Source: Cyanobacteria bacterium CG_2015-22_32_23 (lineage in GTDB: Bacteria; Cyanobacteriota; Cyanobacteriia; Cyanobacteriales; Cyanobacteriaceae). Taken from it: a stretch of 64,000 nt of DNA. The stretch is from positions 1 through 64,000 of the forward strand of contig JAACUG010000074.1 in assembly GCA_009993045.1 (NCBI GenBank). Reading direction: 5' to 3'. Numbering within the stretch: the stretch's first letter is position 1; every line of letters starts with the position of its first letter. The notes beneath the pieces are model-generated. The model was given only the letters and a program-made list of their open reading frames with translations. It had not been told where the DNA came from and searched no databases. This document shows positions 6,841-20,697 of the stretch, in pieces. Made by a program: the position numbers and the translations under genes.

Positions 6841-9318
6841 ATGTTAAAAAAATTTTTAATAACCAGTTTTTGTCTAGGGTTAAATATTTTATTTCCTTTA
6901 TCCATTAAAGCCGCTGAAAAAATTAATTTTGTCTATTCATCACTTATTTTTCCTCTCTCTATTGACTCCTTAGAAAAATTTGCGACTACAGGAGAAATGA
7001 CTCAAGATTTAAAACAATATACCTCATCATTAGACAAAAAAACTTTAGCAGAAATTAGAATTTACCTGAATAAATCTTATAATTTTGAAACCATTACTTT
7101 ATCAAAACTTACTCGCACTTCTCTAGGGGAAGATTTACTTAAACAACTAGGAAAAGTTATTTCTACCCATAAAGATAGAAACGGTTTTTATGCCATTAGA
7201 GGTGCTATTTTAACTACCGCTAATCAAAAGTCTTCTTGGACAATTTTAGATGTTTTACGCTCTTTTCCCACTGATTATATTTATGTTAATTTAGAATTAT
7301 TAGTACAATTAAAAGATGATATTTTTATTTATCAAAGTTATAGAGAAGCCGTAACAAAAGCAATTATTAATCAATCAAATATAGAAAAAGAAAAAGAAGG
7401 TATTTTAAATTTAGAAAATCTCAATAATTTAAGTAAAAAAGGAAAATATAACGTTACAAAAGAAACGATTACTTTAACAAGAGAAGATTTAAGACAGACA
7501 AAACAAGGATTTGTCGGAGAATATAATTTTGAGGTAGATTTTTATTTTCCTAGTGATACTGAAGAAAAAAAGCCTCTTATCTTAATATCTCATGGATTTG
7601 GTTCATTAAGAGAGAATTTCGCCAACTTAGCCGAACATTTAGCCTCTTACGGCTTTATAGTTGCTGTACCTCAACACGTTGGTAGTGACTTACAATATAG
7701 AGAAGAATTGTTAAAAGGTACGTTAAGCAGTGTCTTAAGTCCGATAGAATATATAGCAAGACCTCAAGATTTAAGTTTTATTATCGATAAATTAACATTA
7801 TTAGCCTCACAAGACGAAAAATGGCGAAATAGAGTCGATTTAGACAAAATAGGAGCTATAGGTGACTCTTTAGGTGGTACAACAGTTTTATCTTTAGCAG
7901 GAGCTCCCTTAAATATACCACAACTTAAAGCCGAATGTAGTCAAGATCAGGTGATAGTAAATGCTTCATTAATATTGCAATGTCAAGGGAGTCATTTACC
8001 ACCCGTTGAATATAATTTGCATGATTCAAGAATTAAAGCCGTAATCGCAACTCATCCTCTCATCAGTGGAATTTTTGGATCACAAAGCCTTAGTCAGATT
8101 AAAATACCAATTATGATAACAGGAGGTAGTAATGATATAATTACGCCTGTAGTCATTGAGCAAATTCATCCTTTTATTTGGTTAAAAAGTCCATTTAAAC
8201 ATCTTTTATTTTATCAATCAGGCACTCATTTTAGTTCAACAAAACCAGCGCAAGAATTTACAGCAGATTATTTACCTGAGATTTTAATCGGAAATAATAG
8301 AGATGTTACTAGCAATTATTTTCAAGGGATAGCAGTGGCTTTTATGGAAAAATACTTAAATAATAACCAAGAATTTTTACCCTATCTTACTGCTAGTTTT
8401 GCTGAATTTTCCAAGGGAAAAAACTTACAAATAAATCAAATAACTAACCTTACTCCAGAAAATATTAAACAAATTTATGGTGATAATTTACCCTTAGAAA
8501 TAGTACCACCTTTAGTAGTTTCTTTTCCCTTAGAAGATGATTATAATTCAATAGTAGAAGAAATTAAAAACACTGGTATTTTAAAAGTAGCTTATCCCCA
8601 AAATAATTATCCTTTTGGTTATGTTAATAATCAAGGAAAATGGGGGGGTTTTTGTCAATTTTTAACCAAAGAATTAGCTAGTTATTTAGAAACTCAATTA
8701 GATTTACCTTTTCCCCTTGATATAAAAATTTTTCCTTCTAATATTAATAATCGTTTTAATTTAGTAAAAGAGAATCAAGTCCATTTAGAATGTGGTAGTA
8801 ATATTATCAGAGAAGAAAATAATCAAGTTAGTTTTTCACTACCTTTTTTCGTCACGGGTAATTACTTCTTAATCCCAAAAACTTTGACTAATAAATTTAA
8901 TCCTAATCAATTCCTTGAAAATTTTAAAATAGGAGTTTTAAAAAATACTAATACTGATAATTTTTTACAGAATAAATATCCTAAAACTAAACCCATATAT
9001 TTTGAAGGAATAGAAGGGAAAAAACAAGAAATTGAAGCCTTGAAAAATAATTCTATTGATGCCATTATGGATACTCAAATTTCCTTAGAAAATCAGTTAT
9101 CTTCTCTAAATAATTCTCAAGATTATCAAATAGTGCCAACTCTACCATTAAAATGTGATTACTACGGTTTACTTTTGCCAAAAGGAGATAAACAATGGAT
9201 AGAAACTATTAATAATTTCCTCACTAAAACCTCTTTAACACAACAATATTTTTCTCCTCAAATTCAATCTAATTTAATTAATAATTTCAACTATTGTCTA
9301 AATTTGAATAAAGAATAG
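6841..9318 (+). CDS. Exported DUF1400-type alpha/beta hydrolase fused to a family 3 solute-binding domain
   Basis: 825 residues with an N-terminal signal peptide (about 1-24). Residues about 25-150 resemble the cyanobacterial DUF1400 leader found before esterases. Residues about 190-530 are an alpha/beta hydrolase: SHGFGSLREN as oxyanion region, nucleophile elbow GDSLGGT, an Asp in GGSNDIITP and a His in SGTHFSS. Residues about 575-815 look like a bacterial periplasmic solute-binding family 3 domain, starting GILKVAYPQNNYPFGYVN and containing an IGVLKNTNTDNF segment. The hydrolase is likely an extracytoplasmic esterase or lipase; the second domain may bind an amino-acid-like product. The fusion is read from a single open frame. 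Confidence 0.75.
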   Translation: MLKKFLITSFCLGLNILFPLSIKAAEKINFVYSSLIFPLSIDSLEKFATTGEMTQDLKQYTSSLDKKTLAEIRIYLNKSYNFETITLSKLTRTSLGEDLLKQLGKVISTHKDRNGFYAIRGAILTTANQKSSWTILDVLRSFPTDYIYVNLELLVQLKDDIFIYQSYREAVTKAIINQSNIEKEKEGILNLENLNNLSKKGKYNVTKETITLTREDLRQTKQGFVGEYNFEVDFYFPSDTEEKKPLILISHGFGSLRENFANLAEHLASYGFIVAVPQHVGSDLQYREELLKGTLSSVLSPIEYIARPQDLSFIIDKLTLLASQDEKWRNRVDLDKIGAIGDSLGGTTVLSLAGAPLNIPQLKAECSQDQVIVNASLILQCQGSHLPPVEYNLHDSRIKAVIATHPLISGIFGSQSLSQIKIPIMITGGSNDIITPVVIEQIHPFIWLKSPFKHLLFYQSGTHFSSTKPAQEFTADYLPEILIGNNRDVTSNYFQGIAVAFMEKYLNNNQEFLPYLTASFAEFSKGKNLQINQITNLTPENIKQIYGDNLPLEIVPPLVVSFPLEDDYNSIVEEIKNTGILKVAYPQNNYPFGYVNNQGKWGGFCQFLTKELASYLETQLDLPFPLDIKIFPSNINNRFNLVKENQVHLECGSNIIREENNQVSFSLPFFVTGNYFLIPKTLTNKFNPNQFLENFKIGVLKNTNTDNFLQNKYPKTKPIYFEGIEGKKQEIEALKNNSIDAIMDTQISLENQLSSLNNSQDYQIVPTLPLKCDYYGLLLPKGDKQWIETINNFLTKTSLTQQYFSPQIQSNLINNFNYCLNLNKE

Positions 9319-9350
9319 TTTACTAATTAGCTATAAACTCATTCTTTAAA

Positions 9351-9385
9351 ACCTGACACCTGATACCTGACACCCGATACCTACC
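9351..9385. repeat. Heptanucleotide short tandem repeat (ACCTGAY)
   Basis: About five copies of ACCTGAC/ACCTGAT/ACCCGAT lie between the hydrolase-SBP gene and murB. Shorter relatives occur near 2518-2549 and 33611-33625, and a long one at 26998-27096. These match the class of short tandemly repeated repetitive sequences known in cyanobacteria. Confidence 0.75.
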
Positions 9386-9419
9386 TTCACCAAAACACTA
9401 TGAGGCAACCCCTACTTAA

Positions 9420-10349
9420 TTAAAATTGCCCTAATAATCTTACTTCAGGATGTAATAAGATTGACCATTTTTTCTCAACTTCTTCCTGCACATGATTAAT
9501 TAAAGTAAAAATATCTCTAGCGGTAGCATTATCAGAATTAATAATAAAATTAGCATGACGATGAGAAACCTGCGCCCCCCCAATTTGACAGCCTTTTAAG
9601 CCAATTTGCTCGATTAACCACCCTGCCGCCTTGGGATAAGGATTGCGGAAAACACTGCCACAGCTAGGCTTATCATAGGGTTGAGTATTTTTACGAATTC
9701 TAAAGTTATTAGTAGTAATTTTTAACATTTCTTCCCTTGCCATACCCGATTGTAAGGAGAAACTAGCTTTTAACACTAAGGCTTGTTTATTTTGTAACTT
9801 TGAAGAACGATAAGCATATTCTAAATCAGCCCTAGATAAAATCTCAATACTACCATCTCCATAGGCAACTACGGCATTAACTAAAATATCTCCTATACAG
9901 CCCTTATGAGCCCCAGCATTCATCACCACAGCTCCCCCAACGGTGCCGGGGATACCTACAGCCCAATCCAAGCCTTGCCACCCTTTTTTTGCGGCTTTCC
10001 ATGCTAGTTTAGGTAAAGAATATCCTGCCCCAACGGTTATAGTATTACTTTCTTCATCAATGCTATAGTCTTTGAAATGACGAGTGTTTAAAACTAAACC
10101 TGAAATACCAGTATCACTCACAAGTAAATTAGAACCAGCACCCAAACAAGTAAAGGGAATTTGTTGTTTTTCTATCCACTCAAAAATAGCTTGAATATCG
10201 TCCCATGTTTGTGGCTCAACATACCATTGAGCAATACCCCCCACTCGGTAAGAAGTATATTGAGATAAAGCTACGGAATGATGGATAAGGCATTCACTTC
10301 CTTTTAATGAGATAGGACTTTTTAAAGAGTCTGTTTGTATATTTTTCAT
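9420..10349 (-). CDS. murB: UDP-N-acetylenolpyruvoylglucosamine reductase MurB
   Basis: A 309-residue FAD enzyme that reduces UDP-GlcNAc-enolpyruvate to UDP-MurNAc with NADPH in peptidoglycan synthesis. Visible motifs are GAGSNLLVSD and GIPGTVGGAVVMNAGA for FAD and substrate binding, the catalytic Ser in SCGSVFRNP, and the C-terminal HPEVRLLG with the catalytic Glu. The ATG at 10349 is preceded by GGAGTG about 10 bases upstream, so I prefer it to a GTG 18 bp further up. It follows murC on the same strand, separated by a tandem repeat. Confidence 0.95.
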   Translation of the reverse strand: MKNIQTDSLKSPISLKGSECLIHHSVALSQYTSYRVGGIAQWYVEPQTWDDIQAIFEWIEKQQIPFTCLGAGSNLLVSDTGISGLVLNTRHFKDYSIDEESNTITVGAGYSLPKLAWKAAKKGWQGLDWAVGIPGTVGGAVVMNAGAHKGCIGDILVNAVVAYGDGSIEILSRADLEYAYRSSKLQNKQALVLKASFSLQSGMAREEMLKITTNNFRIRKNTQPYDKPSCGSVFRNPYPKAAGWLIEQIGLKGCQIGGAQVSHRHANFIINSDNATARDIFTLINHVQEEVEKKWSILLHPEVRLLGQF

Positions 10350-14305: not shown

Positions 14306-14499
14306 GATTAATTTGTATAATAATTTCTGTAACCTCTTATTTTATCTTACTTAACCATCAAATAATCTCATTACCCCATGAAAAAAACCAAAAAACATCT
14401 TAAGCATCAAGACTTCATTTCATGAAAAATTAATGTACTATTTTTTACTAAGACTTGCTAAACCAAAAGAAAACAAGTTATAATAATTAAGCGTGTTAT

Positions 14500-14573
14500 G
14501 GGTGCGTAGCTCAGATGGATAGAGCAACTGCCTTCTAAGCAGTCGGCCACAGGTTCGAGTCCTGTCGCACCCG
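14500..14573 (+). tRNA. tRNA-Arg (anticodon UCU)
   Basis: A full cloverleaf can be drawn. The acceptor stem GGGTGCG pairs with CGCACCC (14566-14572) and the discriminator is G. The anticodon stem ACTGC/GCAGT encloses loop CTTCTAA with anticodon TCT at 14534-14536, and the T arm contains GGTTCGAGTCC. The 3' half, from the anticodon loop on, is duplicated at 20655-20697, marking this gene as the insertion site of the element described next. Confidence 0.97.
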
Positions 14574-14574
14574 T
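14532..14574 (+). repeat. Attachment site copy inside tRNA-Arg (attL side)
   Basis: 43 bp identical to 20655-20697. The block begins at the first base of the anticodon loop and ends one base past the discriminator. The preceding base (C versus A) and following base (C versus T) differ, so the borders are sharp. Confidence 0.92.
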
Positions 14575-14635
14575 CTTTTAAAATCAATACTTCTAGCTTT
14601 TTTCTCTACTAATTGTATTTAACATATATAAAAAC

Positions 14636-14724
14636 TGGATCATCTCTGGATCATTTTTTCTAATATTTGTTGTGTTAGTATTTCTGTTTTTTATGAAAGT
14701 ATAAAGTGGATCATTTCTGGATCA
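14636..14724. promoter_or_regulatory. TGGATCA boxes, left end (two pairs)
   Basis: TGGATCA occurs at 14636-14642 and 14647-14653, and again at 14707-14713 and 14718-14724. Within each pair the start-to-start distance is exactly 11 bp, one helical turn. The same box with the same spacing lies next to the other attachment site. Proposed role: arm-type binding sites for the integrase N-terminal domain (inference). Confidence 0.65.
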
Positions 14725-14780
14725 GTTTTAAGACTCTTTTTTAACTGGTTATATTCATCTTTGTAACTAGATCTTCTTTA

Positions 14781-14832
14781 GATCTCTGTTGATCTTGTGG
14801 CCCTCTAAAGGACCGCAAGATCAACAGAGATC
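14781..14832. repeat. Long hairpin (24-bp stem, 4-base loop)
   Basis: Arms 14781-14804 and 14809-14832 pair with a perfect inner run of 17 bp, one G-U pair and one mismatch, and loop CTAA. The stem contains repeated GATC words. No T-run follows on either strand, so it is not a classic intrinsic terminator. Confidence 0.85.
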
Positions 14833-15198
14833 AAAAATAGAACCTAATTAACACGAAATTGACACTACAAAAACCGCAAACTTGTAGATAAACACAATAC
14901 AATTTTGTACACCTTTGTGAACAATTTAGATACGGTTAAAAGCTAACTAATTCAGTTATATGTTTATGTAGGCCCTTAAAGGCCGATATAAGCACAGGCA
15001 ATCAGAAACAAAAAAAGAGTTTGATAATGATTCTCAAAATAATCTGATAATAGTTTTTAATATTCAGTACAAATACAAACAGCTAAGGTCTGAGAATGTA
15101 CTGAACATTATGTTGATTATCAAAAAATTTACTTTAGCCTTGATTCTTGAGTAAAGTGCAACACTTTGCACCATAGAATATGAGGCTTTTTCTAATTT

Positions 15199-18100
15199 TT
15201 ATGAAGAAATTGCTAACTCATAAAGATTTACTAATTCTTTGTCCGATAAGTCAAAAACATTTTTATAAGATCGTTTTATCTGGTTTTCTATGAAAGAATG
15301 TTTTTCACTCATAGAAAAGAATCCTAAATGCTCTAAATACATATTAATTATTTCTATCATATTATTAAAGTCTTTTTCTTTTATATCTGACTCAAAAAAT
15401 TGAACATTATCAACTTCATTTTTTTCTTGACTCACTTTTTTTGATGTTGCCTCCCCTATTTTTGTAAAAGTATTGATTTTATTAGGGTTTTTGCCTCCCA
15501 TGTTGCCTCCCATGTTGCCTCCCTTTTGCCTCCCTTTTGCCTCCCATGTTGCCTCCCCTTTTTGATTTTTACTCTCATTTTTTGCCTCCCCTGACTCATT
15601 TTTTTGATTTTTACTTTCATTTTTTATAAAATCTGGTTCATAATTATTGTTTATATATTGAAAATCAGATTTATTGTTAAATATCAGATCAGTTTTAGAC
15701 TCAGATAAGTCATTTTGAGTTTGTGATGGATTGAAAATTGATTGATTTTTGAGATTAGGGGAGTCAAGATTAGTTGTTAGGGGAGTCAATAGGGGAGTCA
15801 AAGGGGAGTCAATAGGGGAGTCAACATGATTGCCCTCAAACTCTTTATTATCAATAGTTTTAGAATTTTTAGGGGAGTCAGGGGAGTCAAGATCAAATTT
15901 TATCCCAGATAAATATTTTTTTTGATGAATAGTTTTTTCTTTTACTTTTGGGAATAGCTCTAAAATTCTTGTTTTTAAATCTTTACTTAGTTTGACGACA
16001 GGATCTTTTTTGTCATCATCTAACCAAATATTTTTTACCTTTTCGTTTTTGGTTTCAAACTCTAAATAGCCATTATTAAAATACCATTGAATTAATTTGC
16101 TATATATATCGCTAATACTTAACCGATCTGATTCATCACCCGTGAAAATTAATCCTAAGTCATTAGAGAATCTTCTTAGATGATTATTTTCTTCAATGAC
16201 CTCATTAAAGTAACTTTCAGATTGTTGATAATTAATGCCGTTTTGGTAAACATCTCCAAAAGCATCAATCAATAAATTTAATAACGCTGGTGCAACATCA
16301 TTAACCAGAAAGTTTTTATCATGCTTAAATCTTGGATCTGCTTTTAATTCACCTTGTTTTGGGTTCATGGAATAGGTTTTAGTGAAGGGAATTAAGGTCA
16401 GTCGTGATTGAATAGCGAATTGATTACCTTTTAAATCAGGCTTATGGTTAGTATTGAACACAAATAAAGTATTTAACTTAACCTCAAAACCATCTTTTCC
16501 TTTACCTTCAATAAATAATGGATCACCCGTGATTGCTTGTTTAAGAGATTGAATTGAATCAATGTTAATTTCTTTATTTTCACTACTCCAATTAAGTTTA
16601 GGATTAGTGGCAAGTCGAGCTAAATTAAAACCTCTTGATTGTGAAAAATCATTGAGAGAACAGCTTGTTATGCCCTGTTCACCTAAAATTAAACTTATTA
16701 CTTCTCTTACGGTATCTTTTCCGTTGCTACCATCACCAATTAACAAAAGGGCTTTTATTCGGTCCCACATTTCCTTGATTGTTTTGAAACTTAAAATTGT
16801 ACTAAGAGTTTTAACAAATAAACTTTTATACGGTTCATCGATACATTCTAATAATTTATTTGCTGGTTCTTTATTTGCTTTTGGATCATAGTTAACCTGA
16901 CTTTGATAAGTAAAATAAACATCATGAGAGTATTTTCTTAATTCAAATTTTGGCTTATTATTTTCATCTTTTATTAATGCTAAGTAACCATTTTTTAAAG
17001 GTATCCCTTCACAATTAACCTGACTAGGTGAAACTCCAAATAAAGCGTTTACCCATTTAAAAACATTTTCTACACTTGTCGGATTAGCTTTACTTTTCTT
17101 ACCTTTTTCATCAATATAATTAGAACACCAATTAACAATCTGTTTTTTAATAATTACTGTTTCTTTTTCTTCATAGTAATTTCCATTATATTGATATAAA
17201 ACATTATTTAAACTGATCCAATTACCATTAAATAATTCATTAGTTGCAATATTGATCCAAGAATCATTGATGACATTTTCATTGTTTGTAGTATGCTCTT
17301 TAAAGTCTCTTTTTTCACTTGTAACAGTGACTTTACTAGATTGCGATTGATTTGATTTAAACAAATTTGACCATTGACTTTTATTGATTAATCCTAACTC
17401 TATTAATTGATAATAAATAGTACCTAACCCAAAATTACCATTAGTTGATTCAATAATTTGTGACCAATTATAATCATCATCTAAACCGATAATATCACCA
17501 ATATTTAAAGCAATATCTTCTCCATAAAGTTGTTTTATCGCTCCTAATAATTTTCTATAATTATCATAAGTATTACTACCTTTTTGATGAGGTTTTACGA
17601 CATCTTTGATAAAGCTAATAACCTGATAATCAGTAACTTGATGATTATTCATAACTTTTTTAACTTCTTTAGGGATACTGCGAGGGATAATATTTCTTAA
17701 ACTTTCATAAGAGTAAGTATGTAAACAACCGCTAAGAACTTTTGATTTTTTTCCTTGAATTAGATTACCGTTTTCATCTTTTGAGTAGTGAAAATAATCT
17801 GGTAATCTCATTAGTCTTGAAGGATCTTTTACTGCTGGGTCTGATCCGATATAATCAATTAAGTCTTTGATTAATTCTTGCCATTGTTCAATTGGTACGG
17901 GTTCATCAAATACCCAATAATGATGAATGCTTTTACCCCCCGTAAATAGTCGAATAGTTGGAAATGGTAAATTAAATTTAGCTAATATGGTTAATTGTTC
18001 ATCGTAAGATAGGTTGTCAAACTCACAAAATAAGGCTTTTGCGGTTTTAATATCTTTCTTAGAATTACCTTGACCATTAACAACGAAATATACACCATAA

Positions 18101-18429: not shown

Positions 18430-18771
18430 TTATTGGTCATTTTTTGATTTATTCATTTTCTCCATTAAAAGTATAAAAATTTCAGGATCTAAAGCATGAC
18501 GTAAAACTATTTTCATTAAGTCTTTATTCATGACAAGATCAGATTTTACTGGGCTTAAACGGCTTGTCCACATATCTTCATTTTGCATTCTTTTTATCAA
18601 ATTTTTCACATCTGGTGAACTTGTTTTTGCATTCCATAAAAAGTCAATTAATATTAATGGTAAAACCTCAGACATTAAAACATTATTTTCTTCACAATAT
18701 TGCCTTAATGCTTTATCTATATTTGGGTGTGCAGTAAATCTTATTATTTTCTTTTTTCTCTTTTCACTCAT
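18430..18771 (-). CDS. Small ribbon-helix-helix-like protein
   Basis: 113 residues, basic N-terminus (MSEKRKKKIIRFTAHPN) giving a possible beta strand, then two helices with ALRQYCEENN and LMSEVLPLILIDFLW, a layout seen in CopG/Arc-type DNA-binding proteins. The C-terminal 50 residues are helical and unrecognised. The ATG directly follows the stop of the 90-residue gene (TAAATG), with GAGG eight bases upstream, so the two are translationally linked. A repressor of the element is a reasonable guess; no close family is recognised. Confidence 0.6.
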   Translation of the reverse strand: MSEKRKKKIIRFTAHPNIDKALRQYCEENNVLMSEVLPLILIDFLWNAKTSSPDVKNLIKRMQNEDMWTSRLSPVKSDLVMNKDLMKIVLRHALDPEIFILLMEKMNKSKNDQ

Positions 18772-19044
18772 TTAATTATCCTCATTTATTAATTGTTTAA
18801 TATCTTTGATTAAGTTATTAGCATACTTAACCTTATAACCAGATTCTTGATTATTAATTTTATTTACTATTTCTTTAAGTTTCTCTGTAACAAGTGAATC
18901 ATTAGGTTTAATTCCTAAATCTAATTGATAAGCATAAGCTAAGATTTCATCTTCAAATGTCTCAGGTATTCTGATTAATTTTGTTGGGGTATTTTGCCAT
19001 TTACTCTTAAATGGTTTTAGGTTATCTAAGTTGTTTTTGTGCAT
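18772..19044 (-). CDS. Small protein with cyanobacterial RIPE-motif N-terminus, probable DNA binder
   Basis: 90 residues. The segment TPTKLIRIPETFEDEILAYA resembles the strand-helix start of ribbon-helix-helix proteins common in cyanobacterial accessory genes; the C-terminal half is lysine-rich and helical. It is first in a two-gene unit with the 113-residue protein. Two palindromic sites lie 13 and 80 bp upstream of its ATG, and a near-copy lies inside the gene, which would fit autoregulation. Function inferred from motif and context only. Confidence 0.6.
   Translation of the reverse strand: MHKNNLDNLKPFKSKWQNTPTKLIRIPETFEDEILAYAYQLDLGIKPNDSLVTEKLKEIVNKINNQESGYKVKYANNLIKDIKQLINEDN
18882..18897. 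promoter_or_regulatory. Operator-like site inside the 90-residue gene
   Basis: TCTCTGTAACAAGTGA matches the upstream operators at 15 of 16 positions. It encodes part of DSLVTEK, so coincidence with coding sequence is possible. Confidence 0.4.
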
Positions 19045-19056
19045 GGATGCAATAAC

Positions 19057-19072
19057 TCACTGTAACAAGTGA
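19057..19072. promoter_or_regulatory. Palindromic operator, promoter-proximal copy
   Basis: TCACTGTAACAAGTGA, with arms TCACT and AGTGA, begins 13 bp upstream of the ATG of the 90-residue gene. An identical 16-mer lies 67 bp further up. Position over the likely promoter or 5' leader suggests repressor binding. Confidence 0.6.
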
Positions 19073-19123: not shown

Positions 19124-19139
19124 TCACTGTAACAAGTGA
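19124..19139. promoter_or_regulatory. Palindromic operator, promoter-distal copy
   Basis: Exact second copy of TCACTGTAACAAGTGA. The 67-bp centre-to-centre distance between the two copies would suit looping or cooperative binding. Confidence 0.6.
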
Positions 19140-19317: not shown

Positions 19318-20493
19318 TTAAAATAATTCTGGTAATTCTAAACTTTCATCTACTGCTAAATAATTTCTGATCAGAGTTGGTACTGAATTACCAACAATAT
19401 TAGCTATAGTTTGTAAATCAGCTTTACCCGATCTGCATAGGTGAGTAGTATAGCAATGTCGAATATCATAAAAAGTTAAATATTCTTTAACTAAACCATC
19501 ATTGATTAAATGATTCAGTATTTTTTTCCAAATTCTTTTTGAAAAATTATGAGTATCAAGATAATCACCATTTAAGTTAGGAAAAATCAGTTTAGAATGT
19601 CTTTTTGGAATTTCTTTTAATAATTCATAGAGTTGTTTATTAACTGGAAATAAACGACAATAAACACCATTTTTAGTACCTTCTTTTAACTCATTATCAG
19701 TGTATCTTTTGTCAAATTTAATCCACATTTTTCCATTATTATCAATAATATCATTCCATGTTAACGCTATTGCTTCACTAGGACGACAACCCGTTAAAAA
19801 TCTAAAAGCAACAAAATAATAATAAAAACTATGGGAGTTAATACCACTATATTTACTTAGATAAGTATCATTTTTAAATGCTGATAATATCGCTTTAACT
19901 TCTTCTTTATTAAATGATTTAATTTGTTTATGTTTTTTTACATTTAAGTCATAAATAATGTTAGGTAAATAATTTTGTCCTTTGAATTTACCGTGTTTTA
20001 TTGACATATTAATACCAGCACTGAGACTTTTTAATATTTTTTCAACTCTTGATAAAGCATAATTTTCTTTAAGTAATTCTACAAAATCAGCAACATTTTC
20101 TACTGGAATAAAATTATCTAATAATTTATCTATAGGATACCAAGTTACTTGTTTAGTTTTTAAAGAAATATGTTGTTTGTTTTTTTTATAATATTCCCAT
20201 AGTTCTTTAAGGGTAATTTGTGTTAAATCAGGGTTAATCGGAATAACTTTTTTTTGATAATTTAACTTATATTTTTCTTTTGTTTCATCATAGCGATCAT
20301 AAAGATAAATATCATTATGAATTTCCGTCGCTTTAGCAATAGCAATATTTTGATTTTCAGAATCAAAGTAATTTAAAGGATAACTAATAAATTGACGTTG
20401 TCCTTGATAAGTATAAATTAAACGAATTAAACCGCTTCTATTCTGAATAGTAATTTTTATTCCAGAAGGTCTGTAACTTTTCTCAGGTATCAT
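19318..20493 (-). CDS. Tyrosine recombinase (integrase)
   Basis: 391 residues. The N-terminal 80 residues (GLIRLIYTYQGQRQFISYP followed by AKATEIHNDIYLYD) resemble the Min27-type arm-DNA-binding domain. A core-binding domain follows, then the catalytic domain: first Arg in TGCRPSEAIALTW, His-x-x-Arg region as DIRHCYTTHL, and nucleophile Tyr in RNYLAV. The position often held by His/Trp before the Tyr is Asn (IVGNSVP), as in some cyanobacterial relatives. It sits beside the attachment site and its upstream region overlaps the TGGATCA boxes, so it may regulate itself. Role: site-specific integration at tRNA-Arg. Confidence 0.92.
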   Translation of the reverse strand: MIPEKSYRPSGIKITIQNRSGLIRLIYTYQGQRQFISYPLNYFDSENQNIAIAKATEIHNDIYLYDRYDETKEKYKLNYQKKVIPINPDLTQITLKELWEYYKKNKQHISLKTKQVTWYPIDKLLDNFIPVENVADFVELLKENYALSRVEKILKSLSAGINMSIKHGKFKGQNYLPNIIYDLNVKKHKQIKSFNKEEVKAILSAFKNDTYLSKYSGINSHSFYYYFVAFRFLTGCRPSEAIALTWNDIIDNNGKMWIKFDKRYTDNELKEGTKNGVYCRLFPVNKQLYELLKEIPKRHSKLIFPNLNGDYLDTHNFSKRIWKKILNHLINDGLVKEYLTFYDIRHCYTTHLCRSGKADLQTIANIVGNSVPTLIRNYLAVDESLELPELF

Positions 20494-20540
20494 TAAAAAA
20501 AAGTGATATAAGATGATATTAATTGAAATATTTAGAAAAG

Positions 20541-20580
20541 TGGATCAAATATGGATCAAAATTAGATCATAATTGGATCA
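20541..20580. promoter_or_regulatory. TGGATCA boxes, right end (four at 11-bp pitch)
   Basis: TGGATCA at 20541-20547, 20552-20558 and 20574-20580, with a variant TAGATCA at 20563-20569. All four starts are exactly 11 bp apart. The array lies between the integrase start and attR. It mirrors the paired boxes at the left end and so probably binds the integrase or an excisionase. Confidence 0.7.
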
Positions 20581-20654
20581 TTTTTTATCAACTTGAATAG
20601 CCAAAATAAACTTATAACGTTGATATTTTCTAATAAATTAATTATATCACCTTA

Positions 20655-20697
20655 CTTCTAAGCAGTCGGCCACAGGTTCGAGTCCTGTCGCACCCGT
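20655..20697 (+). repeat. Attachment site copy, tRNA 3' fragment (attR side)
   Basis: 43-bp duplicate of the tRNA-Arg 3' half from the anticodon loop to one base past the discriminator. It lacks the 5' half and cannot form a tRNA. The gap 20494-20808 otherwise contains the TGGATCA boxes and the dapA upstream region. Confidence 0.92.

Follow-up and report, generated by a model that had tools for sequence, protein, structure and literature searches.

A probable SaPI-type replication origin of inverted iterons within the initiator gene of a small cyanobacterial integrative element

Why should a primase-helicase gene carry, in its own 3´ part, two clusters of almost the same 9-bp word in opposite orientations? 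The question arises from rep, a gene in a cyanobacterial contig of which we analysed the first 64,000 nucleotides (hereafter the window). We suggest that positions 15447-15890 are in all likelihood the replication origin of a 6.1-kb integrative, plasmid-like element, or at least the core of that origin to which the initiator binds, and that they would be read by the wHTH domain of the Rep protein itself. A first-pass annotation made from the letters of this DNA had already proposed an origin within the initiator gene. Comparison with relatives strongly supports the proposal, since the clusters keep fixed places while their element-specific words change in concert; phage relatives carry the same clusters just outside the gene, as SaPI/PICI origins do.

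The element, its Rep protein and the iteron clusters

Besides rep, the element contains only an integrase gene and two small ORFs; exact 43-bp repeats of tRNA-Arg sequence flank it (Table 1). An Rfam scan returned tRNA only. A 45-bp tandem repeat array (5 copies, 94% match) occupies positions 1-277 of the window. Pairs of operator-like 14-16-mers, spaced by exactly 67 bp, lie upstream of the small-ORF/rep operon in all four elements that were compared.

Rep is composed, in this order, of an N-terminal primase region, an SF3 (D5-like) helicase, a wHTH domain, a disordered linker encoded by the putative origin, and a C-terminal tail. Its match to DUF5906 lies above the cut-off of that family; against the P4 family phage/plasmid primase model TIGR01613 it scores 95.9 bits, below the curated cut-off of 108.7. 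For helicase plus wHTH, the nearest solved relative is the SaPI5 primase-helicase, both by profile (7ola, E 2.3e-17) and by predicted fold (7om0, Z 24.9, rmsd 5.1, 386 aligned). Rep is an SF3 helicase with a C-terminal wHTH homologous to SaPI Rep. In place of the P4-like satellites named in the first-pass annotation, SaPI5 is the better reference. The rep stop lies 693 nt past the wHTH codons, and the clusters are inside the frame; the linker that they encode is predicted to be disordered (AF2, pLDDT below 40).

Both clusters are present as first described. Cluster A consists of eight copies of GGGAGGCAA in minus orientation, cluster B of seven GGGAGTCAA-type words in plus orientation, six of them exact and the seventh with one mismatch (GGGAGTCAG, about 15872). 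The reported pitch of 11-12 bp holds in the dense parts, and the words indeed fall in all three frames in cluster A and in two in cluster B. Shuffled sequence would lead one to expect 0.45 copies of GGGAGKCAA; the window has 15, of which 14 are at 15447-15890, and paired copies are absent from the rest of the 3.27-Mb genome. A single GTGAGTCAA just outside cluster A, missed at first reading, equals the word of relatives. The encoded protein is no explanation for the words, because their number exceeds that in every synonymous-codon shuffle that preserves the protein (0/100 reach it). The most AT-rich 100 bp of the whole rep gene (83%) begin at 15599, within the spacer between the clusters.

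Table 1. Features of the integrated element; positions refer to the window unless a locus is named
Feature	Position	Strand	Basis or remark
tRNA-Arg(TCT), integration site	14499..14575	+	
att copy within 3´ part of tRNA	14532-14574		
TGGATCA pairs, likely integrase arm sites	14637..14725	+	partner set 20536-20581
rep, 1020 aa	15199..18261	-	ORF; DUF5906 E 2e-14; SaPI5 profile; fold
C-terminal tail codons beyond the putative origin	15202..15426	-	
Residual ancestral-type word GTGAGTCAA, single	15427..15435 (about)	-	
Iteron cluster A, 8 x GGGAGGCAA	15447..15590	-	orientation opposite to B
AT-rich spacer, candidate melting region	15591..15757	.	78% AT
Iteron cluster B, 7 x GGGAGTCA(A)	15758..15890	+	starts 5 nt past wHTH codons
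wHTH domain, about aa 693-789, likely iteron reader	15895..16185	-	AF2 pLDDT about 90; predicted recognition helix aa 759-769, wing about 774-785
113-aa ORF, RHH-like by eye, probable regulator	18430..18771	-	homologue on plasmid f, 80% identical
90-aa ORF, probable operon regulator	18772..19044	-	90% identical in G004
Operator-like TCACTTGTTACAGTGA, copy 1	19057..19072	-	upstream of operon
Operator-like TCACTTGTTACAGTGA, copy 2	19124..19139	-	67 bp from copy 1
Operator-like pairs in the elements compared	19057/19124; L040 9956/10023; L060 1949/2016; L061 2515/2582		
Tyrosine integrase	19318..20493	-	PF00589 E 1e-16
Second att copy	20655..20697	+	exact 43-bp repeat of 3´ part of tRNA

Fixed places and changing words among relatives

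A relative from the same genus (G004), whose Rep protein is 79% identical, contains the same two inverted clusters in the same places. Its word is GTGAGTCAA, that of the window GGGAG[GT]CAA, and all well-aligned words are altered in concert: 7/7 words of cluster B and 4/4 well-aligned words of cluster A share one single-base difference, at an identical position of the word, and the A words differ at a second position as well. For eleven independent identical changes we obtain p of about 6e-14, a rough value that takes the background difference rate outside the words as 0.19. The word of the window looks derived, because the T-form is kept by the small plasmid e (see below), by L041 and by the one residual copy in the window. 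Tandem expansion cannot account for cluster B, because each of its copies retains its own flanks. A second concerted replacement is found in a Nostoc plasmid group, where about 10 equivalent positions are occupied by one of three words, CCGCACCA, CCGACCCA or CGCCCCA. In the wHTH, window and G004 differ at residue 764 of the predicted recognition helix (T/P), at residues 777-780 of the wing (TIHQ/CPQG) and at others too.

Two complete plasmids of Cyanobacterium aponinum, e and f (L060 and L061; 4586 and 4363 bp), co-reside in one strain and consist of a rep-type gene, two small ORFs and little else. Their iteron clusters lie inside the rep gene; plasmid e has one extra single word copy at 2373, outside it. 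The helicases of the two are mostly 80-100% identical and the tails 85%, while identity falls from 65 to 35% in the wHTH and to about 17% in the iteron linker, and the words are GTGAGTCWA vs TTTGGGTAT. The wHTH and the iteron linker diverge together. Apart from this divergence, the N-terminal primase parts of the two proteins are dissimilar on near-identical helicases, which amounts to a domain swap.

The wider family was collected with an alignment as query, as the single window protein returned no relatives. Rep relatives are cyanobacterial; after dereplication at 85% there were 69 of them, in which iterons were sought by exact 8-mer scan. Most have a word that is their own or specific to a close group, present in both orientations straight past the wHTH codons. 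Among relatives with a long tail, inverted iterons lie within 600 nt past the wHTH codons in 38/55, and the exact 8-mer scan found none in the other 17/55; control windows from helicase-coding sequence gave 0/138. The first-pass annotation had reasoned that repeats kept as DNA while the encoded residues change argue for DNA binding. The same pattern is found among relatives, most of which have DNA repeats: these persist in constant positions although the peptide that they encode varies, and no relative was seen that keeps the protein repeat by other codons.

Most of the cyanobacterial plasmid and genome relatives have a frame that continues through the clusters. Among phage relatives the wHTH instead marks the end of the frame, and the clusters come after the stop, for example in L187 (near what looks like a terminase gene) and, clearly, in cyanophage Pan4. 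Clusters lie just past the stop in 70/80 viral loci, a set not dereplicated that would reduce to about a dozen families; many downstream-type loci, in which the best 8-mer has an additional copy inside the last wHTH codons, were counted separately as straddling. Measured from the wHTH end, the first iteron has a median position of +11 nt in both the in-gene and the downstream group, and the last iteron of +284 vs +287 nt, whereas the stop codon is at +573 vs -3 nt. Among streptococcal satellites, taken as positive control, the arrangement was clear in 1/4 (Javan634, from +2 past the stop) and weak or absent in the other three. Word similarity tracks the wHTH more than the helicase: given the helicase, partial Mantel r between word and wHTH is 0.31 (0/2000 permutations), against 0.12 between word and helicase given the wHTH, in tests that correct for shared ancestry only in part.

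Some relatives show further arrangements. L042 (7281-9974) resembles the window element in its type of primase part, its integrase and its small ORFs. Its helicase differs and is VapE-like by eye, and nevertheless the 3´ part of the gene contains clusters of a word peculiar to L042 (AGGTTGGTA). In L128, L161 and L175 (Microcoleus/Tychonema group) a further family of repeats, TGTAGACA, occurs in either orientation 50-400 bp past the rep stop, in addition to in-gene iterons. L045 has a second inverted set (GTTGAAGC) just past the rep stop (9236-9556) besides its in-gene GTGAAGCA set, possibly a duplicated origin.

Other readings of the clusters

The clusters could instead be where a small RHH-like protein binds, as a centromere-like partition site or as an operator, comparable to ParR on its 11-bp repeats. 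The pitch of 11-12 bp would suit such a site, small RHH-like ORFs lie directly upstream of rep, and several of the larger relatives adjoin parM. We nevertheless regard it as quite unlikely. The 113-aa protein is nearer to that of plasmid f (80%), where the iterons differ, than to that of G004 (61%), where they are similar; as its similarity does not track the word, we rejected it as iteron reader. Further, the operator-like pairs are identical in window and G004, and again in plasmids e and f, though the iterons differ within both pairs, and phage relatives retain the clusters beside the wHTH. An RHH fold predicted for the 113-aa protein from its single sequence (pLDDT 58) was too low for use.

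A second possibility is that the true origin is a stem-loop 3´ of the gene, as in pRN1 (PMC4234260), with the intragenic words serving in copy control or as accessory sites for the initiator. Between the rep stop and the tRNA there is an inverted repeat (14772-14841, arms of 33 nt) that could be part of an origin, and plasmid f (L061 1793-1826) and L042 (10056-10089) have palindromes at the corresponding place. Such an inverted repeat was not found in G004 or plasmid e, however, while the clusters are present in all of them, and we give this reading very little chance.

A hairpin in the mRNA between the clusters is possible in principle, yet each A:B pairing in the window contains a mismatch (GGGAGGCAA with TTGACTCCC) that is absent in G004, and in phages the clusters are so arranged outside the gene. 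Finally, a minisatellite or a protein-level low-complexity expansion devoid of DNA function, which the partly tandem copies and the disordered linker might suggest, can be all but dismissed, as it fits neither the codon shuffles, nor the two orientations and several frames, nor the concerted changes at conserved positions in relatives, nor the clusters that phages carry outside the gene.

Proposed mechanism and comparison with known replicons

We return to the clusters as an origin read by Rep. In this element, and in many cyanobacterial plasmids too, replication very probably starts inside the initiator gene. Because Rep is homologous to SaPI Rep, it is expected to bind both clusters, to melt the spacer and to prime. 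In such a model, the wHTH would bind the 9-10 bp iterons of both inverted clusters and SF3 helicase hexamers would assemble on each side of the spacer. The AT-rich spacer would then be melted by the Rep helicase and primed by the N-terminal primase. The putative origin lies at the SaPI/PICI place, straight past the wHTH codons, and we infer that the reading frame was extended across it and not the reverse. Because the frame extends across it, the origin would also be translated, as a disordered linker before the C-terminal tail. Joint change of iteron words and wHTH would give each element its own specificity.

It is conceivable, if not yet probable, that this holds for a family of cyanobacterial plasmids and islands spanning the phylum. 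The initiator frame would have been extended over a SaPI-type origin, which would be transcribed and translated as part of the initiator; wHTH and iterons would form one cassette, whose concerted rewriting yields novel replicons compatible with one another, and initiation may be regulated by the very expression that runs through the origin. For this widespread, uncharacterised class our analysis provides a predicted origin and its likely reader, usable for vectors and for predicting plasmid compatibility. The natural pairs (window and G004, plasmids e and f) and the Nostoc group make a multi-site shift of iteron-initiator specificity directly testable.

Intragenic iteron origins (lambdoid phages, PMC7466680), SaPI-type origins in PICIs and the pRN1 stem-loop origin 3´ of rep are known. 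We did not find a read-through SaPI-type origin in cyanobacterial plasmids with concerted iteron rewriting in the open-access literature, and the combination of intragenic and SaPI-type across cyanobacteria appears undescribed. In lambdoid phages one iteron set lies beside an AT tract, and O is not known to be a helicase; in P4, the iterons are outside alpha, at ori1-crr, and ori2 is inside alpha and is not known to have iterons. The element shares with the lambdoid ori the placement of iterons and AT-rich stretch within the initiator gene, and differs by having two inverted sets within a primase-helicase gene; extra iterons in gene O add residues to the protein (PMC7466680). It shares with P4 alpha a primase-helicase whose wHTH binds origin repeats (PMC4234260), here by prediction. 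Plasmid pRN1 (orf56/orf904) likewise has a small repressor gene and a primase-helicase-wHTH gene with the origin at its 3´ end, but that origin is a stem-loop outside the gene, without iterons (PMC4234260). CyRepA and CyRepX are also cyanobacterial plasmid replication proteins; the accessible text on them gives a different helicase class, DEXDc, and describes no iterons (PMC10079941, PMC10899382).

The closest parallel is the SaPI/PICI replicon, which has the SF3 helicase with wHTH, two iteron sets flanking an AT-rich stretch right past the wHTH codons, and element-specific words (PMC6092414). The C-terminal domain of SaPI Rep recognises iterons that lie directly 3´ of the gene (PMC7581432), and the protein apparently acts as two hexamers (PMC7581432; PMC6092414). 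There are two differences. Firstly, the SaPI origin is 3´ of rep and outside it, as in our phage relatives, whereas here it would be inside the frame. Secondly, PICIs are defined by about 15 kb, by induction through phages and by interference or terS genes, whereas we deal with 6-kb integrative or free plasmids, the present one of 6.1 kb with four genes, none recognisable for phage parasitism. In 2018 the two-iteron-set origin was described as common to PICIs and to no other known bacterial replicon (PMC6092414); our comparison would extend it beyond PICIs to plasmids and phages.
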